From assembly GCA_023078555.1 (NCBI GenBank), contig CM041203.1:2309481-2373480 (forward strand): 64,000 nt of DNA. Direction: 5' to 3'. Under the pieces are notes generated by a model. That model searched no databases. It was given only the letters and a program-made list of their open reading frames with translations, and was not told the DNA's origin. Source of the DNA: Ulva prolifera (lineage: Eukaryota; Chlorophyta; Ulvophyceae; Ulvales; Ulvaceae). The translations under genes and the position numbers were made by a program. Below, in pieces: positions 22,361 to 61,546 of this stretch; within the stretch, counting starts at the first letter, position 1, and each line of letters begins with the position of its first letter.

Positions 22361-25300
22361 TCAGCCAGCTGCGCTCTCGAATCCAAGCAGCTCCACGAAC
22401 GATTCCGGCGTCAGCTTGGCTGGCAGGGCATCCTTCACGGCTGCGTGTCCAGTCAGCAGGCGCAGCGCCTCTGCCAGCTCCTCTGCATCCATGACCTCGC
22501 CAAGGGTTGTCATCACCTCTTCAAAGCGCCCCCCAGACAGCACCATCCCCGGCTCCGTCGCTCCGAGTGTCTTGAACGCCCTCTGCACCTCCTCCAGATC
22601 CACCTGCTCACTCTCACCCGAACAGTCATTCGAACGCACCTAAGCCAGCATTGACACTGCAGATGTATTAGCGCTGAGTAGGCCGAAGCACATGAGCGTG
22701 CCACAGTGCACTGGCCACCATGCAGCGCTCTTGCTATCGCCCACACAAACGCCAGCAGAAACCACCACGCAACAATTCAGGTCACAGATACCGACCAAGC
22801 TGCTGAAAGCCAGCCGCCGCGGCTCATCCAGTCTCGCCTCCACCAGCATCCAGATCCTACAACAAAGTGCTGCCAGACTGCAAACAGAAGAGCCACCCGC
22901 ACCCCATCCACTGGGCTGAAGTTGTGGTACAGGTAGAGCAGCTTCTCGAGGTTGACGGTGGTCGGCTTGGGCTCCTTGCGGAGAGCGGCCGCGGAGGCGA
23001 GGGAGCTGATGATGTCGGTGATGTCCGACTGTGTCGGGTAGTAGCCCATGGCGCACATGAGCTCCGGGATGTGGTCCAGGGGCACCGTGGCCGACACCTC
23101 CCGCGAGCCCGCCACCACATCACCCTGCGCCCGAGTCTGGCTCAGCAAGAAGAGCCTGCACATCCCATAGATCATCTGAGCGTTTCGAAGCTTGACGCTA
23201 CTGCTGGGGATCTTGGAGCGCCGCTTTACACTGCCATCCTGGGTGTATCCTGATTGCGCGATTAATCGGGCCCGCCGGAAAGCGCGCTCAGGCACCGTGA
23301 TCCAGCACACCGAGTCTGCAGCCGCAGGGCCTGGCCTCACGCTCACACCGTGACGTGCAGCACCTGCCATGCTGAACGTTGCGGCCTAGAAGTGCAACAG
23401 CTGTCACCTTTGCTCACATTTCATGAGCATCAATGTCTGGAAGAGTGTGGCAGGTAGGCCTTGCGGCATTCATCAGGACAACGCATGCTGGGGGCTCATG
23501 CAGAGAAGCCGCTAAGAAATGATAAACAGCTTGGAGGCGTGCCAGCGGTGGCAGCAGATCGCTGCACACAGCAGGAGTCAATGCAGCAACCCCTCAAGCG
23601 TCTGAGACAGAGCCTCACCGCTGCACCTCCTCTAGCGAGGGGCCATCGTGGAGGGCATGCCGCCAGCGCTCCGCGCCGGTGCCGGCGGCGGCCGAGCGTC
23701 GCTCCAGGGCCGCCCCGTCCATGGTCCACAGCGCGATGTGACCGTCGCAGCTCGCCGTGATGAGGTGCCGCCCGTCGCAACTCACGGCCACGCCGGCAAG
23801 CTCCCCTGGGTGGGCCATCACAGCGGCAATCGATTCAGGGTGGCCGTCCGTTGGCCACAGCATGATGCCGGCGGCCCGGGTCTTGGACCTGCACAGGCTG
23901 AGCCCTTTGCGGACATACCAGCGCATGGTGCACATCCACAAAAACACCGCAAAGCACGCAGATGGCCATGACGATAATGCTCTGGTGTGGATCAGATGTG
24001 CTAGCAGCCAGCTTGTGGTCGCATGCGAAACACTGCGGCAGAGGAGAGATCAAATCCGCGTTACGCCTTCACAGGAAGGCAGGACCTTGTGTACACTGAG
24101 CAGCGTCCGTGCTCTAGGCCAGACGCTACATTGCCGCAACACCCCTGCGCAGCCGCTAGCCATAGCACGGGCTCTGTCAGGCCACTGGGGCGCATGTGGC
24201 TGTAACACGCACACCATACAGCCACACCAGACCCGCATCCTCACCCACACATCACCTGCTGGACCGGGCCGCCCCCACCAGGCGCGCACCGGAAGGCCAG
24301 GAAGGTGCTGTTGCTGGAGGCTGATTGGAAGATGGCCATCTGAGCGACCGGGTCGGCGCACGTCGGCCCGCGGTACGTGCCGCTCGTCACCGCCGTATCC
24401 GGGTTGAACACCCGCACGTGGAACGAGCCGTCCGCGATGATCAGCTGCGTGTCGATCACCCCCCGCTGAAAGTACGTCAGCGGCGGTGTGAACGACATCG
24501 CGGTCGGCGCCGCATGCATGCACGCCGTCATCTCCGCCGCCACCACCACCCCGGCCTCGAGGCTCGACCCCCCGAGGTCGTACTCGACGAGGCGCCCGTC
24601 CCGGCTCAGCGAGAAGCACCGCGTCTCACCAGACGGCGCCTCGCCAAAGTGCACCGCGACGACCGGCGCATAGTGCACCCGCGCACGCCCAACGTACTCC
24701 CACCGCTTTGTCTTTTTGTACGGCACGAGGAAGAAGAGGAGTGTGTGGCCGTCGGCGGTCGCGGCCGCGATGTGCGCGGCCGAGCTCGACACGCTCACCA
24801 CGACCACCGCCGACTTGGCTTGCCGGAATGTTGCCTCGTCGGCGAGGGTCGCGGCATCGAGCACCGCGACAGCCCCGGACGTGTGGCCGACTGCGAGTGT
24901 GGAGCCCGTGCGTGAGTACGCGGCGCACGCGATGCCGCCGGCGTTGAGGGTACGCTCGGCCACGAGCTCGTGCCGCGCAGTGCTCCACAGTTGCAGCCGG
25001 CCGCTGCGGCCGACAAGGAGGATCTGCTGGCGGACCGGGTGTGCGAGGCAGCACGCGATGTCGCCGACAAGGCGGTGCATCAGAATGGTGCCACGGCGGG
25101 CGCCCTCCTCGGCGGTGTTGAATGCATCGGCCGTCAGCTGCACCACGGCGCCATTGGCCGTGCCGACGATGAAATCTGGGCAGACAAAGGCGTCAAAGTC
25201 GGCGGGGGCGGGCATGCGGGGGCGCGCGCGCGAGAACGACACCATGCGGACGGCGCCGGCCGCGATGTGTTCAAACCACGCGATCAGGCGCAGCATCGGG

Positions 25301-26318
25301 TCAAAGAACCGGACGTGACCATCATCGCCGCCAGTCACGATGAAGTCGCCGATGGATGATATGAAGCTGAGGCGTGCGTTGTGCAGGCGCATGAGCTTCA
25401 CAGCTTTGCGGTCCGTCGGCCGCGTGCCGACCTCGACGGAGATGCCCTGGTGGTCCCACACGACGAGGTCCCCGTCCTCTGTTCCCGTGATCGCCTGTGT
25501 TGTGCCTGGGACAAAAGCGCTGGTGGTGAAGAGGCCGATCTTCTGTTTGAAATCTGGGCTGGAGAGGGGTGGAGAGTAGTACTTGAAGGCCGCGGCTTCC
25601 GGGAGGCACGACTGCCAGAAGAAGGCTCGCCGCTTGCCATTCGAGATGAGCTCGGATGGGTTCCCGGGGTTAAACTTGACACAGGTCTGCATGCGGAACG
25701 CCCAAGTGTCTTGGGAAGGCTTGCGTGGGCAGAAGTGGCAGACGAGTGGTGCAAAGGCGTAGAGGGGGAGAGCGCCTGCATGTCCCCAGCTGGGATGGGC
25801 ACAGTGATCAGGTTCGTGCAGGTATCTGCAGATGAGAGATCCCACAGGGAGATCTCCTGTGCGACACCCTCTCCTGGTATGTGGGAAAGAGTGGCGAGGA
25901 GGCCTGCTTGTGAGCACATGTCCATCGAGACGACTCCATGCTTGTGTGGCTGCGATATCTTCAGCTGGGGTACGCAGGTTATTGTATCCCACAACACGAT
26001 CATGGAATCCTCTCCGGAGTCGGCCGTTGCGACGACCTTTCTGTTGGAGGAGCAGCATGTGCATGTGATGGGGTGAACATGCCCTTGCATCACCGCTTGT
26101 GTGCTCTTGTGCACGTCCTGCATCGAACTGCGTTGAGGCGGTCCAACGACTGAATCTCGTTCTGTGCTGTGACACGAAGTACCTACCTGGATAACGGCTG
26201 TATTGGAGGACACGAAGAAGAATTTTTCATGCTTGTCATCCGACAGATTGTGAACGCATTGCTGAACCGGAGACAGGCCTTGGGCCCATGCGAGCGACAG
26301 GACGTCATTTGATTCCAT
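22361..26318 (-). CDS. CFAP251: CFAP251/WDR66 axonemal WD-repeat protein
   Basis: CFAP251 is part of the calmodulin- and spoke-associated complex at the base of radial spokes in motile cilia. Six minus-strand exons: 26318-26187, 26117-25776, 25686-24245, 23888-23619, 23155-22903 and 22603-22361, giving 893 aa. Seen: DVLSLAWAQGLSP near the start, then WD units (QGHVHPITCTCCSS, VVATADSGEDSMIVLWD, CVKFNPGNPSELISNGKRRA, ITGTEDGDLVVWDHQG, GDFIVTGGDDGHVRFFDP, VSCDGRHLITASCDGHIALW). A CFAP251-specific C-terminal part follows: VPLDHIPELMCAMGYYPTQS, LLYLYHNFSPVDG, then an EF-hand-like tail FKTLGATEPGMVL and FEEVMTTLGEVMDAEELAEA. The exon 2/3 intron needs a GC donor (GCGCTC). Phases agree at all five junctions. 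Confidence 0.92.
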
Positions 26319-39789: not shown

Positions 39790-41617
39790 TTAGCTGCGGT
39801 ACATGCCCAAATCCTGCGGCGAGCCAGCAAGGCACAGCATTTCCTCAGGCGCCCGCCACGCCGGGCAGTCTGCAGCGCTGCCCCGGTGCAAATCATGCAT
39901 AGCACACTGCCGCGGATCCACTGCCGTGACACTTCGGACGTAGAAGGTGTCTGCGTCAGCAGGGGTGAAGCCGTTGACCCCCGTCGCCGCTGCAGTGCTG
40001 TACGCTCCGTGATCCGGGAACTGCAGCCAGTCTCCGCGCCGCAGCACCGGCATCGGCACCTCCTCTAAGATGCGGTCCCAGCCATCGCAGGTCGGACCAA
40101 AGACGGTGCCGTGTTTGTGCAGCCGTGTAGTCTCCAGGCGGGGGCTCCAAGTCAGGGCTGCGGACGATGTGTGCGCGAACGTGCCGGCCGGCAATAGACA
40201 CCCCCGCCAAGGCGCCATGCAAACCTGTGTGGATACACACCCCTCGGTGCCATGACATCCCCGCACACATTTCAGCCACAAGACATGCTTCATAGATCTG
40301 GACAAGGCCGCCTCAGTGCGCGCCCAGCGCATGGAGGGACATGTAATAAACGCACGGCAGCAGGGCGAGGCGTTGGTCGTTGGTCGCACCGTCGGTGATG
40401 TAGTACAACTGCCCACCGTCCGGGCGGGTCTTCACGGTGTGAACCAGCGCAAACAGCGTCACGCACGTCTCCGCGAAGTACCTTCCCGGCTCGGCAATCA
40501 CATCGAGGCCCGGAAACTGTTGCGGCGGGAAGCATCTACCAAGGGCCTCGTTCACCGTGGCCGCAAAGTCCGACAACACGACGTCGCCGTTCTCGTCAAA
40601 CCTCCCACGTAGGCCGCCGCCGATGTCCAGAAGCTTGAAGCGAAATCCGACCGCTGCAGCGGCATCGAATGTGCGTCGCGCCGTCTCAATCGCTGTGCAG
40701 AAAGCCTGCGGGTCCTGGCTGCCGCTGCCAACATGGAACGACACGCCGATGACTGCGAGCCCGCGCTGGCGAGCGGCCGCGAGGAGTGCCGGCGCATCAG
40801 AGTTAGCTTCGGCGCCAAACTTCTCTCCAAGCTGCCGGAGCTCGGTGGGGTCGTCTGCGCGAATCCGTAGCACGAAGCGCGCAGCAGGGCACAGCGCGGC
40901 GACCTTGTCCAGCTCGTCCTCGCAGTCAAACGTCATGGTCTGCAAGCCCCTGGCAAAAGTCGGTGTCGATCGGGGCGTACATAGATACATGTGTGGGTAC
41001 CCACGTATACCGATGGCGTCGTCGTACAGCCTTCGGCAACTTGTCCACAATTAGAGACAAGTTGAATTGTCTAGGATTGACTGTAGACGTGTACAACCTG
41101 TCTGCTTCCGGCGTACATACAAGCGCTGCCTCGGCCCACCCCATAAGAGCCGCACCCCCTGCGGCTCCGTGAGTGACGTTCACTATAAGTGTTTCTTAGA
41201 AACAGCACGACACCGGTCAGGGACTGCCGGCAAGCCGCGCCACACACAGCAGACACTTCAGAGATCTGCAGCGGCTGACAGAAACGTCAATCTGCAAGGC
41301 TGATGTGCTGCTGAACGCACAGCGCAACGACAGTCAAGGACACAGCTTCTTGGAACGGCCGTCTTCAAAAGCGATCTGCAACGACGCACATGGACGCCCG
41401 TCGAAGCTGCGTAGCGGATGTCCCCCGGCAGCTTGCAGGTGTGGGCAAAGATGATGTCTGCCGGCTGCACCCCTGTCGTGAGGGCCTGCCGGATCTCCGC
41501 CGCGGACGCGCAATCAAAGCCGCAGCCGAGGCCCACCATCCCCTGCAGCATCCCGCCGTGCGGGTTGGACTTCACCGCATAGTGCAGCCTGACGCGCGGC
41601 ATCGCACCCACAAACGC
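39790..41617 (-). pseudogene. Ornithine decarboxylase copy A, frameshifted, N-terminal exon missing
   Basis: Three minus-strand exons correspond to exons 2-4 of the other copies: 41617-41390 (HYAVKSNP with the PLP lysine, GFDCASAAEIRQAL), 40939-40390 (TMTFDCEDELDKVA, VSFHVGSGSQDP, LLDIGGGLRGRFD, DVIAEPGRYFAETC) and about 40230-39790. In the last exon the first half reads HVRAHIVRSPDLEPPP in one frame, while GPTCDGWDRILEEVPMPVLR lies in another. Relative to copy C this region is 2 nt shorter near 40120, which shifts the frame. No match to the N-terminal exon (DDTF..LDLGRL) was found upstream of 41617. The gene is therefore probably dead, unless the 2-nt loss is an assembly error and exon 1 was missed. 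Confidence 0.7.
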
Positions 41618-42622
41618 CTGCATATGTATGGTGATCCATATGCATGATGCTCATGCACCAATCTTTGTTCGCACGGCGCGCAGACAATGGGTTCGCGCGC
41701 GATAGCAACGCGAATGTGTATCAACCCGTCAGGGAGGGGGGATCATCCACAGGGATCGTATGTCGAGAGACGCATACGTGCAGCTGCATGCAAGACCACC
41801 CTCTAGGCATCCGTGAGTCGAGGATCAAAGCCAATCTGATTCGTACTGTTGATCTCATGCATGCAGATTTTGAAGAATAGTAACTTGATATCATATATGA
41901 TTAGTGCATGCCGCCTTCGGTGCAACTGCTCACTGAAAATTGTGCACACTGCGACACTCACTGCTTAACTCACATGGATATCTAATGACGCCCTGTGGCA
42001 AGGCCGAACCATGTCGTGTAACAAGCATCAACCAGTGCAACTTCTACCTCAGTACACATCGCGACATGATTGCGATACACTCACATCGATCTGTGCCTGC
42101 ATCGGTTGGTCTAGGTACATATCTTATATAGGATACAGAAGAGTGGGTGGTCTAGATACCGCGACGACACGTCGTGATGTGCATGATGTGCATGCAACAA
42201 ACCGCAGTAATCCAGTGCTACTTCGAATGAGCTCTTTCTGGACTCGTGTGCTGTGAAACTAGCTACAGAAGCGTGGACCGGCATCAACAAACACAGCAAT
42301 AGAGTCACTACTCTACTCAGTGCTGTGACAGCAATGATTCTGAAAGAGTTAAAACAGCAAGTCTAATCTAGCTAGGAAATGCATGTAAACAAAAATCGCA
42401 CGAGAATCTCTCTCGAAACAGTCGCCATGCGGCGCCGCCCCAAAAACCCTGTCAGCGTTGTGCTTCTATCTCACGATTCGACCTCCACTTCATGTAAACC
42501 TATATCCTTTTCTCATTGCGTCGTTACGCGCCGCTACCCTGTAACAGCTGCGCCACCTAGTACATGCATGCTCCCTCGAGCCGCAACACCAACAGCACAA
42601 GACCAGACCGAGCGAGAACATC
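41618..42622. other. AT-richer spacer between ODC copies A and B
   Basis: About 1 kb with lower GC than its surroundings and many GCATG/CATGCA motifs. No gene and no tRNA or LINE-tail copy was seen. Confidence 0.45.
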
Positions 42623-44656
42623 CTACACCACGGCACCGTCCAGAAGGGTTCGAGTGCAGCCAGCTCTGGCTACGTGGATGCCCAGATCCTCTGGCGAGGC
42701 AGTCAGGCAAAGCAGCTCCTCCGGCGCCTGCCATGCTGGGCAGCCCGCAACGCTGCCCCGGTGCAACGCATGCACAGCACGCTGCCGCGAGTCCACCGCT
42801 GCTTTGCTCCAGACGTAGAAGGTGGCCGCGTCTGCAGCAGCAAAGCCGTTGAACATCGATGCCATGGACGTGCCGTACGCTCCGTGCTCCGGGAACTGCA
42901 GCCAGTCCCCACGCCGCAGCACCGGCATCGGCACCTCCTCTAAGATGCGGTCCCCGCCATCGCAGGTCGGGCCGTACACCGTGCTGCGGCGGCGTGAGGC
43001 GGTGTGGGCTTCCGGCGGGGCCGGGAGGTCGGGGCTGCGGACGATGTGTGCACGCACGGATCGGCAGCCTTTATCACACTCCGCAAACGAGCCGTGCAGA
43101 CCTGCATGCATGCACTCCCCTCAAACACCATCGCATCACAGCGCACGCTTCAGCCGCGAACATGCTTCTAAGATCTTGGCAAGAGGGTGTGCGCAAGGGA
43201 TAAATGCTCGTGCAGCACATGTATCGGTGGCTCGAGTGGCTACGGCAGGCAGGCAAAGCCGTTCGCACCGTCAGAGATGTAGTACAGCCCCCCACCGCCC
43301 GGGCGGGTCTTCACGGTGTGAACTAGCGCAAACAGCGTCATGCACGTTTCGGCAAAGTACCTCCCCGGCTCCGCGATCACAGCCAAGCCCGGAAACTGCT
43401 CGGGCGGAAAACAGTTGGTGAGCCCTTCGTTCACAGCTGCCGCAAAATCCGACAGCACAACAGTGCCGTTCGCGTCAAACGTTCCACGGAAGCCACCGCC
43501 GATGTCCAGAATTTTGAGGTGAAATCCGAGTGCTGCAGCGTCGTCGAATGTGCGCCGCGCCGCCTCGACTGCCCTGAGAAATGCCTGTGGGTCCTGGCTG
43601 CCGCTGCCGACGTGGAACGATACGCCGACGACTGCGAGCCCGCGACTGCGAGCGGCTGCGAGCAGCGCCGGGGCCTCTGCATCGGCGTCCGCGCCAAACT
43701 TTTCGCCGAGCTGCACGATCGCAGTAGGGTCATCTGCACGGATCCGCAGCACAAGGCGTGCAGCGGGGGACAGCGAGGCGACCTTGTCCAGCTCGTCCTC
43801 ACAGTCGAACGTCATCGTCTGCAAGCCACCGGAATATGTTGGTGGCTATGCGGATGTACATCCATGCAGGCTGGTTTACGTGTCCTGAGAAAGAATGAGC
43901 TGCCGGCGTGCATGTAAGCGCCGCCCCCGGACACGGCACGCGAAAAACACGCAGCACTCACAGCCCGAGCGGCAAGATGACTTCTGGCAGCAGCCGTCCT
44001 GCAATGCCAGAGCAGGCACGCTGCAGCGGCTGACTGATGCGCCATCGTCTTGCCAGGCTGGTCCCGCCTCCACACTTAGAAGCTATAGCTGAGTAGTTAT
44101 GACCACAGGTGTGTGAGACAGCAGCCCTTGACTGTGTCCGATGCGAGGGCAGGTCTGCGGCATCGCACATGGATGCCCATCGAAGCCGCGAAGCGGATGT
44201 CCCCCGGCAACTTACAGGTGTGGGCAAAGATGATATCAGTCGGCTGCATCCCCGTCGCGAGGGCCTGCCGGATCTCGGCTGCCGACGCGCAGTCAAAGCC
44301 GCAGCCGAGGCCGGCCACCGCCCGCAGCAGACCGCCATGCGGGTTGCACTTCACCGCGTAGTGCGGCCTGACGCGCGGCATTGCGCCCACAAACGCCTGC
44401 ACATGTATGGGGAACCACATGCATGATGTGCATGCGTTGCTGCTGCGTTGCATGACGAGTGGGCTGCATGCAGACAGCCAACCGAGACAGTGGCGGGGGG
44501 TACATTGGACTTCCGCACATGGCCAGAGTGTTTGCAGACCACCCACCGCTCGGGAGCTGCATTCACAGAGACAGGAAGCAATGAACGCCCAATGCTCTCT
44601 CTTGCGCTACCTGTTGGCTTGCATGCCCATCGGCAAGGCTTGCAAACTCGCAACCA

Positions 44657-44694
<38 letters not shown>

Positions 44695-44890
44695 AGACAC
44701 ACACAGCTCCCCTCCGGCCGCCGTGCCACCTCTTGTGGCACGGAGCTGTGTGTATGCTGAGGTACCTGCGCACCTTGTGGAGGCGGCTCAGGCGGCCAAG
44801 GTCGAGGACCTGGAAGGTGTCGTCCAGGCTGTGCTTCCTGACCAAGGCGCACCCGTGGTTGCGCAGGCACGTGACGCCGCCTGCAGGCAT
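42623..44890 (-). CDS. ODC: Ornithine decarboxylase copy B
   Basis: PLP enzyme (group IV, alanine-racemase fold) converting ornithine to putrescine. Exons 44890-44774, 44396-44169, 43818-43269 and 43101-42623 join in phase to 457 aa. Seen: DDTFQVLDLGRLSRLHK; RPHYAVKCNP (Schiff-base Lys); GFDCASAAEIRQALATG; FAHTCKLPGDIRFAAS; VSFHVGSGSQDP; LDIGGGFRGTFD (PLP phosphate loop); VIAEPGRYFAETC; DGLHGSFAECDK; GPTCDGGDRILEEVPMPVLR (the Cys-Asp pair that marks ODC); GDWLQFPEHGAYG. The start used is the ATG at 44890. A TGCAG acceptor 10 bp inside suggests an alternative 5' exon, as copy C has GTG at the aligned position. It is the best candidate for the active gene. Confidence 0.85.
44661..44694. repeat. 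Homopolymer C(34) in ODC copy B intron 1
   Basis: An uninterrupted run of 34 C. The equivalent intron of copy C has a G(16) run at 53424-53439 and another G run near 53622. Confidence 0.95.
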
Positions 44891-45011
44891 AGAAACTCTG
44901 CGGTAGGCTGTGGTTGTCACCAGGGAGGGCAGGTGGCTGGGGGACGTTTCTGTGCACCATGCATGTCAAGGACGGGGGCCGGTGCGCCCACGTGGGCGAG
45001 GGACATGCAAG

Positions 45012-45083
45012 TGGTGAGTGTATGTTGATGTTGATTCGGATGAGATTCGGTTTCAGTGTTTGTTTTCTCCCTTTCACTCTTTT
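45012..45083 (+). repeat. LINE 3'-end fragment
   Basis: Contains GATTCGGATGAGATTCGG, TTTCAGTGTTTGTTTTCTCC and CACTCTTTTGTAA, the 3' terminal block shared by about ten copies in this window. The best-preserved source is the element at 58140-61482. Confidence 0.85.
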
Positions 45084-45117
45084 GTAAACACATGCAAGTC
45101 CGATCGAGATTCCGCTC

Positions 45118-45396
45118 ATATTTGTGTTGTGGCTTTCAGGCTCAGCATCGCACCGTCAGCGAGCTCGCACACCGCGTTCGGGTCGCCATCTACATCGTCT
45201 TCGAGAGCCGATTGCGCGGCGGTTTGCGTCATCTCGCACAGGGTGTCCGATCGCGAGCTGTCTGTGTCGCCAATCTTAAGACCCAGTCGCCCTGACCTTG
45301 CGGAAGTGCTGGGCAGGGGGTCGCCGCCGCCCGTAAACGTGCCGTTGCTTCCATCCTTGCCTTCATCCTGCTCGTCGGCTCCACCGCGTGAACAAC
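45118..45396 (-). pseudogene. Repeated coding fragment of unknown family, copy 1
   Basis: The minus strand reads RGGADEQDEGKDGSN, then GDTDSSRSDTLCEMTQTAAQ, then PNAVCELADGAM. A second copy at 54978-55190 reads HGGAGEQGESSDSGS, DADDSDTLCGKT and EAVCELADGAS in the same order. Peptide conservation exceeds what the DNA alone suggests, so this was coding. Each copy is next to LINE 3'-end fragments, so it may be part of a retroelement or a carried gene fragment. Confidence 0.55.
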
Positions 45397-45967
45397 GATG
45401 ATACGGAAAATTGTTCTCGGTGCAGTTGCACAACTTCAAACAAAGCCGGAACGCCCATCGCGCGCGAGAGTCATCACAGAACAGTGAACGGGCAAGCAAA
45501 CGCAACTCGAAAAGCTACCTCGAAACAGATAGCTGTTGATCGATTGTACACACATGTGCTGAGCACGTACTCAGGGTGTACGGTATACGCATACGCACCC
45601 CTTGAGTAGTAGGCAGGACCGCGGAAAGTTCGCGTCCGGAACAATATTGATATCAGCGTGCACTCCACGTGGCGTTAGCGGGAGCACCGCAGCCATCGAT
45701 CTAGATGTGTGACAGATGAGTAAACGGAGCGATGTAGATGACCGCACCTGTGCGGCGCACACTCTGACGTGCACCGGCATCTGTGCTTGATCCTCAAGGT
45801 TTGAATGCTAGTGGATTCTATTTGACATATGTCTACTGCGAGATCGATGACTCAGACTTAAGTTCGCGCCCCAAAGATGTTTTCAAAGTGCGGGGCGCAT
45901 CGACTGCATCTACTGCAGCTGCGTTGTAACATTCACGTGCATGTGCACCTGCATGCAACACGTACCA

Positions 45968-46166
45968 AAGTTCAGTACAAAAGGAATCACAAAAGAGTGA
46001 ACGGGAAGATAAACACTACCAAAGAATCTCATCCGAAACAACAGCTGCAGCAACATATATACCGTACTAATCAAGTCCATCGACAAAAGTACCAAAAAGG
46101 GAACGGGAGAAGACAAACACCGAAGCCGAGTCTCATCCGAATCAACAGCAACATACACACACACAC
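45968..46166 (-). repeat. Two decayed LINE 3'-end fragments
   Basis: AAAAGAGTGAACGGGAAGA (about 45980) and AACGGGAGAAGACAAACACC (about 46100) with CTCATCCGAATCAACAGC: reverse-oriented, mutated copies of the 3' block described at 45012. Confidence 0.7.
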
Positions 46167-46199
46167 GACAAAATAGGCAGAGTTACATGGGGTCTAGGT

Positions 46200-46699
46200 C
46201 TAATAAATAGCATTGTTGTTGGGCTAGTCACCCCGAAAACTACTGATTATATATACCTAGCTGCAGTACCCATGGGTACTTAGAAAACCCAGCGTTATGC
46301 GTTACATGTCGATGGACTTAATCTAGTACGGTGTATACACATGTACACAATCACACTACAGCCGCGCCCACACCTCAGTCCCGCAGGATCGCGTCCCTAT
46401 TGGTCATCCTCCGGATCTAGGCGCCCGTGAGTCAATTGCAAGGCTGCATGCATATGGTCCTCCGAACTCATATCATAAATATACCGCAGCCCGCAGCTGC
46501 AGATGACGCATTAATTAACGCGTTATACCCACGAGAACAAACAAACAAAGCACAAGCACTGCATCTCTCTCGCAACAGCCACACTGCAGCATCGCCCCAC
46601 AATCTCTCCATCGTTTGAGATTGGAATTGGGCGCTGTGCTCGGGCGGGTTTGACATGGGTCAAAATCTCCTGATGTGCATGTTTTACAAGAGAGTGAAG
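46200..46699. other. AT-rich spacer with LINE 3' UTR remnant
   Basis: Near 46370-46410, CACACCTCAGTCCCGCAGGA and TCGCGTCC resemble 59110-59135 (minus-strand LINE 3' UTR). The rest holds no recognised feature. Confidence 0.45.
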
Positions 46700-46822
46700 G
46701 ACTGAGTTGTGTGTGCGGTTGTAGTGTTCGTACGCGTGTGTGTGTGAGTGTATGTTGCATTTGATTCGGATGGGATTCGGTTTCAGTGTTTGTTTTCTCC
46801 CGTTCACTCTTTTGTAAATACA
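46700..46822 (+). repeat. LINE 3'-end fragment
   Basis: One of the fuller tails: GTGCGGTTGTAGTGTTCG, a GT-rich stretch, GTGAGTGTATGTTG, GATTCGGATGGGATTCGG and TCCCGTTCACTCTTTTGTAA. About 120 bp match the 3' UTR of the element at 58140-61482. Confidence 0.85.
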
Positions 46823-49800
46823 AGAGAGTGAACGGGATCTCCTGATGTGCATACGTTGGGCCGTTGGTGTGTTTGTTGTTGCCCTGGCGGTGCAACCGGC
46901 CACTCTGACTTTGTCCTGGTAACGCAATCACTATACGTCAATACTTCTTTCCCAGGATGTGGCCAGAAACCATGGTTTTTACCTTATAATGTCGAGACCT
47001 GCGAGCTCAAGTCAGGACGTCAGCAGAGACAGCGCTGCGCTTGAGCTAGCACCAGCCGGTGAACGTTCGAGGTGCAACGTGAGCACATGTACAGGTCTTC
47101 TGCAGAAGAGCGAACGCGGCCATAGACACACACAACGAAAGAGCCTCTTCCGTTCAAGCGTCGCTCTTACAGCCACACTGCAAGTCGAGGACCTCTCGAG
47201 GGTCTCGAGGTGCACCTCGAGGGTCTCGAGGGTACTCTTTTGTAACAAACAGGACCTCGAGGGACTCGAGATACCGGTACACCTGCACCAGGATCAGTAC
47301 TGCGAAGCACGACGTCTACATGCGCTGAAGACCTGGCTCATCGCGACGGGATGGGTGCTATCTCGTGTCTCAATAAATCAGTCCATATACAAATCGTCCA
47401 GCCGCAGTAGCGCACTCTCTGAGGCTGAAGATCTTCGCTGTCCAGCGGCAGGATCTTGACAGCGACAGCAGATCACAGATCACAGAGGCGCAAGTGATCA
47501 TGAACATGAGGTGCCGTCCAAGTGCGCATGTCGACTTTGAACAGAACGTCTCTACGTTACCTATGGACTGCCATTTACGTACGTAGCAAATGAAGTAGCT
47601 GAGAACTTGCACACTGTTGAGCAGCATGAGCGGACTCCCAGAGACCGTCATGACGACAAGACGAGGGAACGGTTCAATCACGCCCTTGTCAGTTTGATTG
47701 TCGACCGCATTTCGTCCTGTGTATCTTTGGCTCTGTTCTTTTGACACCCACGGCTGACGACACGTGTAGTCCAGCGGGGTGTACGCGCACGCAGAGCCAA
47801 ATTTGAAAGCGCGCGACTGTGAACTCCCAATACACTGCGCATGATGTAGTCGCTGCAGTGCTGTAGTGCTCTTCGAAGAGCATGATTCGTTCCTAAACAT
47901 GTCACTGTGTTCACACTGTCTGCAGCGGGAGCGCCGCGTTGAATGCGGCGCAGCTGCCTTTCATGAAACCGCACCTGACCAAGGCACGTGGGCTGTTATC
48001 GCCGCGTCCCCCGCAATGCATGGTTCGGGCACAGCAGGGCAGCCACCACCACCGCGCGGGTTGCCGCCACTACTTGCCTATTGATCTCAAGCAGTGAGGA
48101 TCAGTGGTCTACAACCCACTACAAAAGACGGGTTTTCTTGTAAGAAGCCGCCAGGAGTGAAAACAATTTGAATTGGCGGTTGACGCCGCTGAAATTGGGC
48201 TGCCCGAGCAAATGCCAGCGCGCGCAGCCCGTTGGGTCCTGGCCTTTTGGGCGGTCTTGCCCGCTGGAATATGCAGCGCGCGAGCGAAGCGAGCGGGATG
48301 TGTTGTCACAGCTAGCGCAGCGAGCGAGCTTGGTTGGCATTGGCATCAGGCGTACATGTCTTCGAGACGCCACTTGACGCCTTGCCCCGCAGCCGCGACA
48401 CGCTCACTCTGAATCACTACGTCACTTAAGCTTTACAGAGCGCAACCCACAGTACCAATAGACGCCGTGTGTCTCTTCTGCTTTGAGCAATGCTTATTAG
48501 TCCATTCGGTCTCAAGGGGTCAGCCTCCACAAAATGCGCTCGTGACGATAGAGTCAAACACGGTCAGCGCTGTATCTGCTTGGACCTCCGGCACGAACAT
48601 ACTTGCGAGGAATGAGCCAGGCGGTGCTAATGCTGAAAATATTGACGCGTGGCTGCGGCCTCTGGCGAGGCAGCTGCCCCCGCCGAAGGCGATGGACCAT
48701 CGAAAGGACCTCGCGTGTTGACTGCAAAGCTGATCGTGGACTTCGCGGACCTCCAGATGAAGTTTGCACAGCATATTGGATTCAAAGATGGCCGTGCAAG
48801 GCGTTGCAGGGCTTGCCACAGCTTCTGCGATCGCAAATGCCAAGTTGAGGTGTTCACTAGCTGCAGTACTGGAGACGCCAATGCTGTCAAAAGGCATCAG
48901 GACTTGGGGAGTCATGGCAAAGCCGTAGATTACAGAGAAAAAAGGTTATCTGCATTGCATCAAGGGCACAACAGATCATGAGTGATGCAGGCAGACACTT
49001 GTTATTGCAAGCGGAGCAAGGCCGATTTGTTTTGGGCATCCCTCCAGAAAAAAATAATCACAGCGGGATATCCCTCCAGAATTTCGGGGAGCCAGCGGTG
49101 CCGGCCCTCTGACAATCGGGGGAAAGTCAACGGGAATCCCTCCCCAAGAAAACGGTGCTGTAGAGCACGGGTGAGGATACGTAAGACATGATGCAGATCA
49201 TCAGGAGCATGACTTAATCAACCTGCTTCAATATTAACTTAATCGAATGTGCTGCGGACTTATCTGCACGTGTGGACGGGTGCAGGTGTTGGCGTCTCTT
49301 CGCATCGGTGTGGTCGCTCTGGACTCTGCTTGTGTTGAGCTGTCGACAGTGGCTGGCCATGGGGTGCGTTGTGCTGCGCACAATGCATGCAGCCATGGGC
49401 TGGCGTAAATGTTATTGAGCTGCTGGCTGTTTTCGCCTGCTGCCTGCCACACCGCCGTGGTCCTCTCTCAGCACACTCACCCATGTGCAAACACTCATTT
49501 GGCACCGCAGCCGCGTCGAGGCGGCCCCACATCATGATGTGGCCATGCATACACACACGGTGTGGATACCCACTGGCAGCTGGGCCGCCGGCTGAGGGTC
49601 CCCACACACCGCCCAAACCGCCCCCCGCACACCAGCAATGAAGCAGGCCAACCGCCGCACGTGCCTCCCTGTCCGAAACTTACACCATGCTATATCAGGG
49701 CTATGCTGGCTGCGGCGCCCCCACCACCGGCCATGCAGCCACAATTGTCAACTGGAACCCACGCCGCGCTCTACTGTGAGACGTGCAGCCTGATGGCCAA

Positions 49801-49829
49801 CGCCATGTGAAGATGGCGCCTAGTCGGGG
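46823..49829. other. Gene-poor, repeat-marked region
   Basis: No supported gene. A CTCGAGG-rich short-period repeat lies at about 47178-47275 and is interrupted by a LINE-tail phrase (ACTCTTTTGTAAC). A minus frame at 48520-48915 contains FGGGSCLARGR, superficially like a P450 haem loop but with the wrong Cys spacing. A G/C-skewed segment at 48180-48330 (GAGCGAAGCGAGCGGG) stands out, but I could not classify it. Confidence 0.4.
47178..47275. repeat. CTCGAGG-rich short-period repeat
   Basis: Repeated GGTCTCGAGG / CCTCGAGGG phrases, largely self-complementary because CTCGAG is palindromic. Confidence 0.7.
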
Positions 49830-50310
49830 GCCAGAGCTTTTTGGGCGGCCCGCCGCTGCTCTAGAGCATCGAGAGATTGTCGGACGGGGCTGTGAGTCCC
49901 ACCGATTCTAGCAGCCCTGTCTACATGGTGACCCATCAGCTGCCCGGGCCGTGGCACACACCTTGCGAGCGGCATTCACGACAGGGCACTGTGGACATTT
50001 TGAGCATGGTCTGTACCAAGGACTGCCGTTTCGAGGCAGCGCCCTGCAGCCACACACGTCACGAAGCCTGTCGAGGAACGCTACTAATGCACGCTTAGTA
50101 ACGCTGCCAGGGGCCTGTTTGCCGATATGTCACAGGCTACAGCCGGCCCCGGGTGACGGCGCCAGTGAGGGCGGAGCCGCACTCACTGCGTTGGCGCTGG
50201 TCAGCAGCCTCGATCGCGAGCTCTGTGGAGGCGACAGCATGGGGCGGTGCGACACCGACACTCAAGTCGGGCAGCGGTCGAGTGACGCACACGTTGCCAA
50301 TCAACTGGTA
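49830..50310 (-). repeat. Ancient dispersed repeat, copy 2 (related to 7045-7500)
   Basis: Collinear with 7045-7500 as described there. The minus strand reads GNVCVTRPLPDLSVGVAP. The reading frame just beyond (50310-50582, minus) continues as a Pro-rich peptide containing a 14-residue tandem repeat. Confidence 0.5.
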
Positions 50311-50375
50311 GGGAACGTGTCGGCCGTGGCTCCCGGAGCCTGTGCGTCAATCATGGCGGCATAGCCGGGGCCTGC

Positions 50376-50459
50376 GTGAGCATCGTCAACTTCACAGTAG
50401 CAATGGCTGGCCTGCCAGTGAGCATCGTCCACTTCACAATAGTAATGGCCGGCCTGCCA
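50376..50459 (-). repeat. 42-bp tandem repeat, two units, coding-like
   Basis: Two adjacent 42-bp units (50376-50417 and 50418-50459) differ by a few substitutions. On the minus strand they encode HWQAGHYYCEVDDA and HWQASHCYCEVDDA in an open frame. The unit length is a multiple of three and changes are mostly conservative, so the segment may once have been translated. Confidence 0.7.
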
Positions 50460-51327
50460 GTGGGCGCCATATACATATATGGGAGTCCCAGGCGTGGGTG
50501 GAAATGTGTTACAGTTGCTTAAGCACGACGTCGGAGAGGCCGGTTGCACCGCCGGGGGCACGCACAAGCGCGCCAGCGCCACCAGGTGCGTACGTGGGAA
50601 GGTGTGTGAGCAATGGGCGGGGTTGCGTGGAGGTGTCGGTATGTGCTGGCAGTGCTGACTGACGGCCGCATCTCACATGCTGATGACAGGGGTTTCATCG
50701 AACTCATGCCGTGTGCACATACTAGTAGCCGGGCTTGCCTCCCGGGTTCGGCGGCTATAGCTACGTATACATGCACTGTACGTACACGGTTGTCTTGACT
50801 TTAAGCTTCTGTCACGACGCCCAAAACGACCACTCCAGGCTTCTAGTTTCAGCCTGCCCGTGTCAACAATGACCCTTAATCTTATCCTCCCGACTGATCA
50901 TTTGAGTTCACTCAATAAATTCAACGCTGGCTTGTCCCAGGTGACCTACATTCACATGCATGTGGGTGCACTTCATAGGCGTGCATACCCAAAAAGACAA
51001 CGGCCTCATCACAGCCTGCTGTACCATTCCATGTGCACACATGCCTGCTTCGCCACCGAGCGCACTAGAAGCTTTACTCTCAGCAGCGCAAGGACTCTGC
51101 ACAACAGCGACACTTCCCTACACAACTCAACACTATCTAGTCGAGACTACTGCAGCCATGCCTTCGCGTGGTCACTGCCCACTACTAGTAGTACACAGTC
51201 TGCCCACACCTGAAGAGGTATACGCATGCCCCCACAGGCTGCAGCACCAACAGCGCAACACCAGACCTATGTACCAGGAGCATCCTACGCCATATCACCG
51301 CCCAGGATGCATCAAACGCCAGCAGCT
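50460..51327. other. No supported gene
   Basis: About 870 bp before the ODC copy C stop. Short frames only. Confidence 0.4.
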
Positions 51328-53758
51328 TCAGGTGCAGTGGATGCCCAGATCCTCCGGGGCGGCAGTCAGGCAGAGCAGCTCCTCTGGCGCCTGCCATGCT
51401 GGGCAGCCTGCAACGCTACCCCGGTGCAAAGCATGCACAGCACACTGCCGCGGCTCCACCGTCGCATTGCTCCAGACGTAAAAGGTGGCCGCGTCCGCGG
51501 CGGCAAAGCCGTTGAACGTCGACGCCATTGATGTGCCGTACGCTCCGTGGTCTGGGAACTGCAGCCAGTCCCCGCGGCGCAGCACCGGCATCGGCACCTC
51601 CTCAAGGATCTTGTCCCAACTGTCGCAGGTCGGGCCAAAGACTGTGCTGCGCCTGCGGGCAGCCGTGAAGTCTTCAGGCGGAGGCGCGAGGGCCGGGCCC
51701 CGGAGGATGTGTGCGCGGACTGTCGTGCGTGCACTAGCTACCATTGTGAAGGAACCGTGGAGGCCTGCATGCATGCTCACCGCTCAGCACCATGCCATCA
51801 GCACGCTCCTCCGCCACAGCACACGTTTTGGATATGTGGATGGGAAGGCTTCGAATGCTTGTGTGGGCGCGCTGCTTTGAGCATGGCAGCGAGGTAGTGC
51901 AAAGCACACCGTCAGAGATGTAATATAGTGCCTGGACATCCGGGCGGGTCTTCACGGTGTGAACTAGCGCAAACAGCGTCATGCACGCCTCCGCAAAGTA
52001 CCTCCCTGGCTCTGCAATCACATCGAGGCCCGGAAACTGCTGAGGTGGGAAGCATCTGGTGAGGGCCTCGTTCACCGCCGCCGCAAAGGCTGACAGAGTG
52101 ACGTTGTCGTTTGCATCAAAGCAGCCACTAAAGCCGCCGCCGATGTCCAGAACCTTGGGCTGAAACCCGAGCGCAGCAGCTTCATCAAATGTGCGCCGAG
52201 CCGCCTCAATCGCCCTGCGGAACGCCTGCGGGTCCTGGCTGCTGCTGCCGACGTGGAATGACACGCCGTCGATCGCGAGCCCGCGCCGGCGGGCGGCCGC
52301 GAGCAGCGCCGGCGCCTCCGTGACCGCGTCCGCGCCAAACTTGTGGCCAAGCGGCACGAGGGCGGTGGGGTCGTCTGCGAAAATCCGCAGCACGAGGCGC
52401 GCAGCCGGGCACAGCTCGGCGACCTTGTCCAGCTCATCTTCACAGTCAAAGGTCATCGTCTGCAAGTCCTGGCAAGATTTGATGTCTACAGGTCTGTACA
52501 TGCATGCAGTGCATGCAGTGCATGCTCACGAGTCTAACCAAGACTCCAGGAGCATGCCATGTGTACAGACATCGGAGAATTGAAGCGGTGGCGTGGTCTA
52601 CGATATACTGTGATAGCAAATGCTGCTGGCATGCATGCAAGCGCAGTCCCGAGCCCGGCCCACAACATGCAGCTGCCTTTGGTCCCCTGCATGACCTCGT
52701 GTGGATCCACAATTGTGATATTAATACCTGTTTTGGCCCCGGGCCGGCGGGCACAATGCTAGTTGGGGATCGCCGTTCCAACATGCCACAGGACATCAGG
52801 CACTGCATGCAGAATGGCATTCTGCAGCGGCGGATAGATATGTCGACTCGCAATTGATCGATGCTTCCCGTGCCGGCCCACCGCGCGCGGCAGTGATGGC
52901 CACGGCCCAGCACGCACAGCGCACATCACATGCAGCAGCACTGGTTGCGGCGGCGCACATGGACGCCCATCGAGGCCGCGAAGCGGATGTCCCCCGGCAA
53001 CTTGCAGGTGTTGGCAAAGATGATGTCCGCCGGCTGCACCCCCGTCGCGAGGGCCTGCCGGATCTCGGCCGCCGATGCGCAGTCAAAGCCGCAGCCGAGG
53101 CCCGCCACCGACCGCAGCAGCCCGCCATGCGGGTTGCACTTCACCGCGTAGTGCGGCCTGACGCGCGGCATCGCGCCCACAAACGCCTGCACATGCGCGG
53201 CGGACTACATGCATGGTACACATGCATTGCTGCATGTGCATCGTGAGAGAGTGTCATACACGCGGCGCTAGGGTGTGTGGCTTGCAACGCAGTCAACCGG
53301 AATGTGAAGATCACACATGCTCAGCGGCTCAGAACTAGAAGTAGAACTTGATGGACGTGAAAGAGAACCTCCAAGAATTGCGCTTGTGCATGTTGATGCA
53401 GTGCACATTGTGCAGGCCAAGCCGGGGGGGGGGGGGGGGACACAGGCTGTGAGTGCTTCAGCTTAGTTCAGGCCTGCTGGAAACGTGAAGCACACTGTTG
53501 GAGCATGCAGTATTGTAGGGCTAGCATGCCCACCGGCAAGGATCGCTGGCGCTGTTCTTCTCAATGCACTGCCATCGTACCGTACAGCTACCCTGTGGCC
53601 ACTGTGTCACCTGGTGTGGCGGGGGGGGGGTGTTCTGTGGTGCCTGCGCACCTTGTGGAGGCGGCTCAGGCGGCCTAGGTCCAGGATCTGAAAGGTGTCG
53701 TCCAGGCCGTGCTTCCTGATCAAGGCGTGGCCATGGTCGCGCAGGCATGCAATGCCGC
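51328..53758 (-). CDS. ODC: Ornithine decarboxylase copy C (5' end unresolved)
   Basis: Same architecture as copy B: exons 53758-53652 (CLRDHGHALIRKHGLDDTFQ, LDLGRLSRLHK), 53186-52959 (HYAVKCNP), 52459-51910 (TMTFDCEDELDK, VSFHVGSSSQDP, LDIGGGFSGCFD, VIAEPGRYFAEAC) and 51764-51328 (GLHGSFTMV, GPTCDSWDKILEEVPMPVLR, GDWLQFPDHGAYG, ending EDLGIHCT). Exons 2 and 3 are exactly 228 and 550 bp, as in copies A and B. The PLP Lys, glycine loop and Cys-Asp pair are kept, but the usual Gly after CD is Ser. The codon aligned with copy B's ATG is GTG, and a SINE-like element lies immediately upstream, so the start may lie in another exon or be lost. No internal stop or frameshift was seen. Confidence 0.75.
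53424..53439. repeat. Homopolymer G(16) in ODC copy C intron 1
   Basis: Uninterrupted G run, with a second G run near 53622 in the same intron. Confidence 0.9.
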
Positions 53759-53774
53759 CTGCAAGCACAGCAAC

Positions 53775-57153: not shown

Positions 57154-57833
<680 letters not shown>

Positions 57834-58225
57834 ACATGCTCCATGCATGCGCTGTACCACGCACGGGCTTCGAGTTGGGATCGACCTCCTTATCGGGACC
57901 CCCCGCGGCTGGGGCACGGCATCATGGTGCGTACTTCGCGAATCGAGCTGGTGTGGCCATGGGTTCGCCTAGGTGTCACTAGCTAGCCAGCAGGACAACG
58001 TCTTAACAGGAGTTTTACCTCAAAACCGCAGACGTTTGCATGCCGCACACCCTCGTGTCGCGCACCCGATCTCCCGCGCACCTGGGTGTGTACATGTCAA
58101 TAGTCGCGTAGTCGCTGTGCACAGGGCCTACAGCCGGAGTTACAAAAGAGTACTCGTGAACGCGAGAAAACACACACTAAAACCGAATCTAGATCTCATC
58201 CGAATCAACATCGACATACACTTAC

Positions 58226-59076
58226 TGTTGTGGGATATCCATATCTGGGGATCCAAGAATATAGATGACATAATCAAGGGAGGAGTCATCTAACAAAGGA
58301 CTCGTTGCTTCAGGTGAGCCCTAGTGGTTAGAGCATGTAGTGTGTACTCATGAGGTCACCGGTTCAATTCTTACTTTCATTTCTGCCGCGCGACTTTACG
58401 CGATGGCAAGGTACGCTCCCCTCCACGTCGTCATGCACAGTCAGCATGCTTACCAGCTCAGGCACGCGCATTAACCCCTGTGCACACTCGATGAGACTAA
58501 CACGCGTCTTGACAGGTATCGGTGAGCAGACTTCGTAATCTGCCTCACAGCTTCCATCTTCATTACACCTTCCGCTGTGTGAGCTCCTCCCGAGCGATCG
58601 CATCCCAGTCAGCATAGCTCTCGAGCTTAAGGGAGTCCCAGTTATATGAGTTCGGTTACAGCGGGTTGGGCCCCCGTGGACTCGGGACGCGAAGAGAAGG
58701 TTCCAACATTCCATCAGGAGTATCGAAGATATCCCACAGTTATCAGATCTGGATCTCCCTACGCTCGATCCTCGTTAAGGGGGGAAGTGTTGTGGGATAT
58801 CCATATCTGGGGATCCAAGAATATAGATGACATAATCAAGGGAGGAGTCATCTAACAAAGGACTCGTTGCTTCAGGTGAGCCCTAGTGGTTAGAGCATGT
58901 AGTGTGTACTCATGAGGTCACCGGTTCAATTCTTACTTTCATTTCTGCCGCGCGACTTTACGCGATGGCAAGGTACGCTCCCCTCCACGTCGTCATGCAC
59001 AGTCAGCATGCTTACCAGCTCAGGCACGCGCATTAACCCCTGTGCACACTCGATGAGACTAACACGCGTCTTGACA
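58226..59076 (+). mobile_element. Miniature LTR retrotransposon (TRIM), intact, nested in the LINE 3' UTR
   Basis: Two direct 289-bp LTRs (58226-58514 and 58788-59076), both starting TGTTGTGGG and ending CTTGACA, appear identical. They flank a 273-bp internal region without coding capacity. Just inside the 5' LTR, GGTATCGGTGAGC resembles an initiator-Met tRNA primer-binding site. AAGGGGGGAAG (58777-58787) is a polypurine tract abutting the 3' LTR. A 5-bp target duplication, CTTAC, lies at 58221-58225 and 59077-59081. Removing the element plus one CTTAC restores the LINE 3' UTR seen in other copies. Each LTR contains tRNA-like boxes (see next entry). It is non-autonomous and must use another element's proteins. 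Confidence 0.93.
58315..58384 (+). promoter_or_regulatory. tRNA-like Pol III boxes inside the 5' LTR
   Basis: CTAGTGGTTAGAGC (A-box-like, 58321) and CCGGTTCAATTC (B-box-like, 58359), with ACTCATGAGG (CAT in the anticodon position) between them. Spacing is that of a tRNA gene. The same sequence recurs in the 3' LTR at 58877-58946. The acceptor stem is not convincing, so this is a tRNA relic or internal promoter, not a functional tRNA gene. Confidence 0.65.
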
Positions 59077-61546
59077 CTTACACACACACGAACACTACAA
59101 CCGCACTCACACCTCAGTCCGGCAGGATCGCGTCCTCCAGGCCCGCATCATACCGCAACCCCTGCTCCCGAGAGATGACAAGCCCAGACTTCCGATACAT
59201 ATCCGCATTGCCACGCTAGCGCTGCAATGACACCGACAACACCCGCAGCGCCCACTGGACAAACGCGCCTTTGGAGATGCGCCCACTGGCAGCGGCCACA
59301 TCCCCCAACTGACCGACGAACCTCACGGCAGCCTTGCCCATGAAGCCACACGATTCGACTGCAAACGGAACAAACCAAAACGCGGCATGGTCAGGCACGT
59401 CCCGCCGGAAGCGGTCCCGCTTCCTGTCCTCCGCACGTTCCGCCGTCGCACCCGTCTCCCGCGCCGCAGCGGCCACGTACGAGGCCGCCGGCGCATGTGT
59501 GACCACGACGTCCACGGCCGCCATCTCCAGGCGCGGCATGACCACGACGATGTCCCCGCGGCGATTCAGCTCCACACCCGCGCCCCTCGCGAGGGCACGG
59601 TAGAGCGGCTCCAGGGCAGACTGCAGTCCGGCGTAAGAGGCGACCAGGCGCAAAGCACGAGCCAGGTTGTCATGGCGCATCTGGGTCTCCTTTGCCACCG
59701 TCTTGCAGACCATGGCATGGTCTGGTTCGGCGGCAACACCTGCACTGCATTTGCACGGAGGGGGGGGGACGTCCTTCGGGACGCGGATTCGCAGGCGGTG
59801 CCACTCTGCCAGGACAAACATGTCGTCGCCCAAGGTGAGAACGCCGCCCGGCAGAGCGGAGAGGAAGGCGCCTGCAGGCCCCCCCCCCCCCCCCCCCCCC
59901 CGACGCGCTCCTGAGCCACGCCGCTTCCCGCCTGCCGGCCGGCGTGTCGAGGTCAATGCCCTGTAGCTGGAGTGAGGCCGCATGGTCCGCGACCGCCTCG
60001 AGCTGGGCCGCCAGCAGCTTGTCCGCGACGAACTCGTCCGGTAGGTCGCGGGCTTCGGCCTCCCACCCCAGCAGCTCATGCAGCACGTCGAACAAGCCCT
60101 GCCAGCGCTGCAGCAGACTGCCCCGGCTGCAGCCGCAGAGGGGGCGGAGCAGGTCCGGGCAGCCGGCGAGGTTGCGCTCGGCCATGCCGGCCCCCAACAG
60201 GAAAGCCGCGTCAGCGACACTGTCCACCAGCATCGTCAGTCCGAGCCCGCCATGCCTGACAGGGGACATCAGTCGATAAGACAGCCGCCGCGTCTCAACA
60301 TCAGTGGCTGAGTTGTCAGACGCGGCATCAGCCTCTGCAACCTCAGGCGGCAGGCACAGGATTGCAGCGGCACCGCGCCACACAGCGGCCTCCGCCCTGC
60401 GCATGTGCGGCTCGACCACGGCATACGGCACCGTCCGCATCAGGTGCGTCATGCGCACACTCAGGGACACACGCAGCAGGAGGAACTGCGCCTGCACTGA
60501 GAGCGGGATGCGCACGAGGGTCTCGACGAGGCCCTCAACCTCGCGTGCCTGCGCGTCCAGCGCCTCGGCGACGTACTCCGGGGTGCCTAGCGGCGTGCCG
60601 ACTGCCTTGAAGCCCTCGTGCAGATCCCGAATGCCGAGCTCTGCGGCCACAGCGGCCGCCGCCTCGGCGTCAGTGCTGTGGACGCCACATTTGGCCGGGT
60701 TCACCTCCAGCCCGACGCTGCGCACGCCATCAGCTTCCATGCACAGCCGCCGGAACACGGCAGCTCCAGCCGCAAGGTCGCCCGCGTTGCTGGTGTCGTC
60801 CAGGTACGCCACCACATGTACAGGGGCGCCGGCGCCTGACGCGTCAACGCGCTCCAGGACAGGCTGCAGGGTCAACGCAACAGGAGGGGGCCCAGGGGTC
60901 ACCTTGGCGGACGCCACGTTGGCAGAGAACCGGCTCGACGTCCTCCAGAGCGCCCGCGATGTGCAGCGGGGTCCCGGCGCCGTACGCCCATTGCGTGAAG
61001 GGCAGCAGCGCCGGGGCACGCTCCTTCACGGCAGCGAACATGGCCGCGCTGTCGATGCAGTTGAAGGCGTTCTTCATGTCGACCGAGAACACCGAAGCGC
61101 CCTCAGCGAGAGCGAAGACAGGCCGTGCACGACTGTCTCGGTCCCGCCCCGTGTGCCAACGCCGACCTGCAGCGGCGCCAGGCTCTCTCCGATGCCGCGG
61201 CCGTACTCGCGCAGGGTGCAAACTGCCGCGAACCGGTACCAGGGCTCCCCCACCGCGATCGGCCGCGTGCCACCATCCGGCTTCTCCAGGCCGATGAGGA
61301 GCCCGTCCAGCAGGAACGTCTCCCGTCGCAGCATGCCGGACAGCATGTGGTTGACGACTGCCAGCAGCGCGTCGATGGCTGCGTCCGAGGACCGGCATGC
61401 TGCGCAGATCATCTCGAACGTCAAGCCGGACGGGCCGGCTGATGACCCTCGATGGTGTGCGCTCACGGCGGCCTACAGCCAAGTCTAGATCTGTGCAGAA
61501 GAGTAGCTGTGGTGGTTTTGCTCCTGCGGTGCTCGCAGCCTCAACC

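Follow-up and report, generated by a model that had tools for sequence, protein, structure and literature searches.

The question raised by positions 58226..59076 of the window, by which we mean the whole stretch of 64,000 nucleotides of Ulva prolifera DNA, is how a very short element with the complete hallmarks of an LTR retrotransposon comes to carry, inside each LTR, paired boxes resembling the internal promoter of a tRNA gene. We read it as a non-coding TRIM of the Helenus type, whose LTRs hold a tRNA-derived internal promoter for the putative use of RNA polymerase III (Pol III), and we assign this reading a probability of about 0.68. Its LTR nature is observed directly, while the use of Pol III is inferred.

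An earlier note on this DNA, made from the letters alone, had described 289-bp LTRs with TG...CA ends, a primer-binding site (PBS), a polypurine tract and a CTTAC target-site duplication (TSD), all of which were confirmed to the base (Table 1). The element is 851 bp long and its two 289-nt LTRs are 100% identical over their full length in pairwise comparison, with the PBS GGTATCGGTGAG adjoining the first LTR at its downstream end and the polypurine tract, AAGGGGGGAAG, abutting the start of the 3' LTR. The interior had been called non-coding, and the longest stop-to-stop frame over the element is indeed 136 codons, on the minus strand. The features that characterize a TRIM, namely two LTRs, a length below ~1 kb, the absence of coding capacity, a PBS, a polypurine tract and a short TSD, are therefore all present.

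Table 1. Positions in the window of the parts of the element and of its flanking duplication.
Feature	Position	Strand	Basis
Target-site duplication CTTAC, left	58221..58225	+	Sequence, flank comparison
5' LTR, 289 bp, TG...CA	58226..58514	+	100% identity with 3' LTR
A-box-like motif in 5' LTR, RRYNNRRYGG 9/10	58318..58327	+	Motif scan
B-box motif in 5' LTR, GWTCRANNC exact	58362..58370	+	Motif scan
Primer-binding site GGTATCGGTGAG	58515..58526	+	Complementarity to initiator tRNA-Met 3' end
Internal region, 273 bp, non-coding	58515..58787	+	33 genome matches
Polypurine tract AAGGGGGGAAG	58777..58787	+	Sequence; family comparison
3' LTR	58788..59076	+	Same sequence as 5' LTR
A-box-like motif in 3' LTR	58880..58889	+	LTR identity, motif scan
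B-box motif in 3' LTR	58924..58932	+	LTR identity, motif scan
Target-site duplication CTTAC, right	59077..59081	+	Sequence, flank comparison

At window 57155-57832 lies a 678-bp dinucleotide array, a perfect (TG)339, which ends 393 bp upstream of the element, and three diverged copies of a block at window 39799-53774, with starts ~2.9 and 8.7 kb apart and 80-91% in the longer families, are probably a duplicated gene. The window also holds a pol-I-like DNA polymerase fragment, an APS-reductase-like fragment and, on the minus strand, an ORF (24241-26226) that matches the ciliary protein FAP251 of entry 8glv, which we take to be from Chlamydomonas, with 485.7 bits (223 for the next chain). The FAP251 match, with which the two fragments agree, points to a flagellated green alga as host and not to a basidiomycete, which the occurrence of Helenus in fungi might have suggested. 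The GC content of the window is 57.7%, and the genomes of Ulva compressa and U. mutabilis appear in a published account with sizes of 80.8 and 98.5 Mb and GC contents of 57.3% and 57.2%, respectively (PMC9266709).

A genome-wide search for the LTR, for which the earlier note had called, was made over 88.9 Mb in 44 contigs. It gave 33 matches to the internal region, all of at least 95% identity and 29 of them full-length, and each of the 40 LTR candidates scored, out of 195, reached at least 98%. LTR 5' ends (first 23 bases, up to three mismatches) occur at 181 places, compared with none for the reversed control. That they outnumber the internal regions so clearly suggests that many copies are solo LTRs. 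When the family was read at 95 loci, merged to 45 regions with a total of 150,237 bases, 22 complete copies with two LTRs were found, of which 18 have a perfect 5-bp TSD, two a 4/5 match and two none; the LTRs are identical in 13 of the 22. Every one of the 13 full-length solo LTRs has a perfect TSD, and 13 more pieces, truncated, interrupted or tandem, were left out of both counts. The reverse transcription signals are equally recurrent, with the PBS GGTATCGGTGAG in 21 and a one-base variant of it, GGTATCGATGAG, in nine of the 30 internal regions that include position 1, and the polypurine tract kept in 29 of the 30 that reach position 273. Taken together, the copy counts, TSDs, identical LTRs and solo LTRs establish the family as a mobile LTR element that has been active recently, and they bear out the recent insertion first proposed from the identical LTRs of the window copy.

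Several copies depart from this simple arrangement. At G000:C7:4650413-4651824 a tandem of three LTRs (LTR-internal-LTR-internal-LTR) retains an intact outer TSD, CAGGG, and its outer LTRs differ by five substitutions and three gap positions, which indicates that subfamilies are mixed within it. The LTRs of a complete copy with a perfect TSD at G000:C6:6858591-6859440 differ from each other by five substitutions and one gap, being 99.3% and 97.9% identical to the window LTR, and this copy is possibly a recombinant of two subfamilies that arose during reverse transcription. Copies of the element are also found within tandem-repeat arrays, at G000:C10:629184-631947 (steps of ~180 bp) and C3:5024384-5026053 (steps of 94/188 bp).

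The A-box consensus is RRYNNRRYGG and the B-box consensus GWTCRANNC; with up to one mismatch allowed in the former and none in the latter, the window LTR has an A box at LTR position 93 (one mismatch) and a B box at 137. The proposed A-box/B-box pair at tRNA spacing is thus present in each LTR, the two motifs lying 34 nt apart, and it is the only such pair on both strands of the LTR; the internal region contains none. Of 5000 dinucleotide-shuffled LTRs, 94 contained a pair at a spacing of 25-60 and 13 a pair at a spacing of 33-35. Loss of the boxes in other copies, which had been set as the test of this proposal, is not what the family presents: of the 66 LTRs with a length of 250 nt or more, 63 have an exact box B, 65 a box A with no more than one mismatch, and 61 the two boxes together at a spacing of 30-40. 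Furthermore, over the stretch between and including the two boxes the window LTR can be aligned in register with one of the genome's own tRNA-Ala genes, the alignment score being reached or exceeded by 13 of 2000 shuffles on the plus strand and 263 of 2000 on the minus strand. A second LTR variant has a weaker likeness to tRNA-Ala (45 of 2000 shuffles score as high), and for both variants likeness to the initiator tRNA is at chance, with 892 and 571 of 2000 shuffles scoring as high. GGTTC and YGG are found in the LTR, and TRGCY is interrupted by a single base that a true tRNA does not have. On these sequence comparisons, it is likely that the LTR holds a tRNA-like promoter that has decayed structurally.

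The most serious competitor to this reading, although we consider it unlikely, is that the element is an ordinary TRIM with a Pol II promoter in its U3, and that the box-like motifs arose by chance or are what is left, without function, of a SINE or tRNA once inserted into the LTR. The conservation data are compatible with such an element, as across 44 distinct LTRs the boxes are kept no better than other positions: conservation equal to that of the 15 specified positions is reached by 93 of 289 circular shifts, and invariant positions make up 9 of the 15 in the boxes compared with 170 of 289 overall. By this measure the family provides no significant sign of purifying selection on its boxes. 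In favor of a tRNA-like promoter, on the other hand, a subfamily change at LTR position 97, within box A, falls on an unspecified (N) base. An ordinary TRIM would equally be expected to contain nothing that ARAGORN or Rfam recognizes as a tRNA, and no Pol III terminator, as is the case here. However, it leaves the rarity of a tRNA-spaced pair among shuffles and the in-register alignment with tRNA-Ala to coincidence or to an inert relic, and no TATA motif of the kinds searched was found in the LTR from which Pol II would have to start.

Termination is a point against the Pol III reading. T4 is absent from the plus strand of the window copy and of the 2000 nt downstream, and likewise from 65 of the 66 LTRs and all 29 internal regions, so that a Pol III transcript, if made, would end in host sequence. 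Selection against T4 is unsupported, since 30% of shuffles of the window unit also lack it. Downstream of 38 three-prime-most or solo LTRs, the first T4 lies between 16 nt and more than 1000 nt away, and the putative Pol III transcript of the window copy would, given the 2000 nt without T4, be very long.

A search for tRNAs with an acceptor stem able to pair with the PBS gave 19 places, among them one initiator tRNA-Met-like gene (G000:C10:1882405-1882475), which we take to be initiator tRNA-Met from its anticodon loop. Between the PBS and the 3' end of this tRNA, 12 contiguous bases are paired, nine with letters of the tRNA gene, two with the CCA tail, which is added to tRNA after transcription, and one with an assumed discriminator A. 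The first expected PBS base, a T opposite the last A of CCA, is replaced by A in the window copy. In addition, AACAGGTATCGGTGAGTAA occurs at 12 or more places among the matches listed, three of them at exact 470-bp steps (G000:C2:3953149-3954102), and these places probably represent another TRIM-like family whose primer site is identical, arranged there as a tandem array.

A non-coding element has to borrow its enzymes, and the earlier note had accordingly proposed a search for an autonomous partner that shares its primer site and tract. Two TRIM copies are split by inserts, with halves that overlap by five bases (1-69 / 65-273 on C7 and 1-122 / 118-273 on C4); the halves of the C4 copy (G000:C4:1071449-1081756) lie ~10 kb apart. 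The C7 insert, G000:C7:4930292-4940076, is itself an LTR element, 9785 bp long and nested in the TRIM copy, with two 800-bp LTRs that are 99.1% identical and a flanking 5-bp duplication, GTGAG. Its LTRs start with TGTTGTGAGATATC (13/14 bases as in the TRIM) and end with GTCTCAACA (7/9), its PBS starts with GGTATCGAT, which agrees with the variant PBS of the TRIM in 9/9 bases and is preceded by the same A for T, and its polypurine tract, GTTAAGGGGGGAGG, agrees in 13/14. From these common ends, PBS and polypurine tract we regard the nested element as a candidate partner type for the TRIM. The search for a partner thus yielded a 9.8-kb element with a common PBS and polypurine tract, in which the frames read have no Pfam match. 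These are a frame of 215-218 codons, kept open through 646 bases 3' of the 5' LTR, and one of 161 codons near the 3' end; the edge frames also had no match in the phage collection. A second LTR of this kind, from C10:1674068 onward, starts with TGTTGTGAGA, is preceded by GTTAAGGGGGGAAG and is 72% similar to the LTR of the nested element over 181 bases.

The existence of larger LTR elements with the same ends raises the possibility that the TRIM is an internally deleted derivative of an autonomous LTR family, having whole LTRs in common with a coding relative to which the boxes would then belong. We judge this improbable. The 800-bp LTR of the larger element aligns with the TRIM LTR over the first 14 bases only and lacks an A/B pair on both strands, and identities of at least 95% for all 33 internal-region matches are those expected for copies of a miniature. 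In favor of a coding relative, Copia RT and gag domains are plentiful (at least 150 each: 150 matches of each were scored, of 676 RT and 447 gag candidates). PBS-like sites number 69 and 61 in two sets, compared with 10 and 1 for the reversed controls, and some of them, TGGTATCGGTGAG or CAGGTATCGGTGAG, are followed 4.4-5.7 kb downstream by a Copia RT on the same strand (4/69 and 3/61, with 150 of the 676 RTs scored). Over the same 150 RTs, however, the four same-strand pairings of the first set are no better than the opposite-strand ones (four downstream and five upstream), and the three of the second set compare with two for all other arrangements together.

That an LTR element is merely imitated here, by a SINE, by tandem duplication in place or by faulty assembly, as the small size and tRNA-like boxes might suggest, has a negligible probability, since the LTR-internal-LTR structure at 22 complete places rules out a tRNA-derived SINE, and a genome-wide family with perfect 5-bp TSDs at 18 of these and at 13 solo LTRs rules out local duplication and artefact. 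A separate SINE with a tRNA-like head was not found either, 48 of the 51 pattern hits lying in LTRs of the TRIM family and the other three being unassigned; tRNA-derived SINEs are described as having no LTRs and as being moved by target-primed reverse transcription (PMC10886601).

Comparison with known elements clarifies what is new here. The earlier note had likened the element to a SINE-LTR hybrid, and of this the young TRIM, the LTR hallmarks and the persistence of tRNA-spaced boxes hold, whereas the novelty does not, such elements being already known as Helenus/TRIMp3 (PMC10886601). As that source describes it, Helenus, which received its name in 2024 and makes up TRIMp3 together with Cassandra, is a TRIM with tRNA-derived sequence in its LTR, with conserved boxes and, in fungi and plants, 5-bp TSDs; the primers of fungal Helenus are drawn from tRNA-iMet, mostly from its anticodon loop and in some families from its 3' end (Kojima 2024, PMC10886601). 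The present element resembles the Helenus described there in being short and non-coding, with two LTRs, tRNA-like A/B boxes in the LTR, a PBS and a polypurine tract, in its 5-bp TSDs (18/22 complete copies, 13/13 full solo LTRs), in the use of the tRNA-iMet 3' end seen in some fungal families, and in having tandem copies, solo LTRs and a larger relative at the ends, with a common primer site and another LTR body. The last point recalls one Helenus and its Copia relative, in which the internal ends are common and the LTRs different, the Copia link being reported in fungi (PMC10886601). It differs from most Helenus described in that box A is not an exact TRGCY, and from their host range, given as fungi, animals and, among plants, the lycophyte Selaginella moellendorffii only (PMC10886601), in being found in a green alga. 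The likeness described here is one of architecture. We would therefore place the element with Helenus by architecture, its formal membership being qualified by the form of box A and the putative use of Pol III.

Cassandra, a plant TRIM with 5S rRNA in its LTR, is also described with a Pol III promoter in the LTR (putative here), LTR-internal-LTR-internal-LTR tandems, terminators in the LTR and the PBS TGGTATCAGAGC (PMC7215508). The present element is not a Cassandra, as its LTR has no Rfam 5S rRNA match; moreover, the window LTR lacks T4, which is found in 1/66 LTRs of the family. The PBS given for Cassandra is presumably of the iMet type. Retrozymes carry a hammerhead ribozyme in the LTR, and no Rfam match with E up to 1 was obtained over 57900-59500, which rejects this identity as well. 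Among green algae, Chlamydomonas reinhardtii and Volvox carteri are both recorded as having TRIMs (Gao et al. 2016, PMC4717578). Neither tRNA nor polymerase III is mentioned in the main text of that paper, and no Pol III promoter is thus described in it. In the openly licensed literature, judged from search listings, no report of an algal TRIM of the Helenus/TRIMp3 type was found.

A cycle can be proposed for a TRIM with a tRNA-derived promoter of this kind, of which the LTRs, the match between PBS and tRNA, the polypurine tract, the 5-bp TSDs, the recent spread, the solo LTRs and the ends common with a larger element are observed. In this model, TFIIIC would bind the A and B boxes of the 5' LTR, and Pol III would start around LTR position 75-83, which is ~10-20 nt 5' of box A, leaving a U3 of ~80 bp and placing the boxes within R. 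Because the plus strand of the element has no T4, we propose that Pol III would read through the internal region and the 3' LTR and stop either where the flanking host DNA has a T-run or at a weak site. The RNA may then be taken into the particle of a larger LTR element, for which G000:C7:4930292-4940076 is a candidate, where the minus strand would be primed at the PBS by the 3' end of initiator tRNA-Met and the plus strand from the polypurine tract, before integrase would insert the cDNA and generate the 5-bp target duplication.

More tentatively, and at somewhat less than even odds, the family may represent a chlorophyte lineage of Pol III-driven TRIMs, in which a tRNA-Ala-like promoter was independently captured into the LTR of a parasite of the larger element, the ends, primer site and polypurine tract of that element having been copied. 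Its RNAs would lack a terminator of their own and read through to host T-runs; Cassandra has its terminator built in, whereas this lineage would rely on the host flank for its RNA ends. If true, this chlorophyte lineage lies beyond the reported range of Helenus.

The finding would add a chlorophyte alga to the known hosts of TRIMs for which a Pol III promoter is proposed, and it comes with a candidate partner that has in common with the TRIM only the ends required for reverse transcription and integration. The Pol III transcription of Helenus was stated in 2024 to lack experimental validation (PMC10886601), and with its identical LTRs and intact TSDs the Ulva element is young enough for it to be tested whether Pol III can feed LTR retrotransposition.
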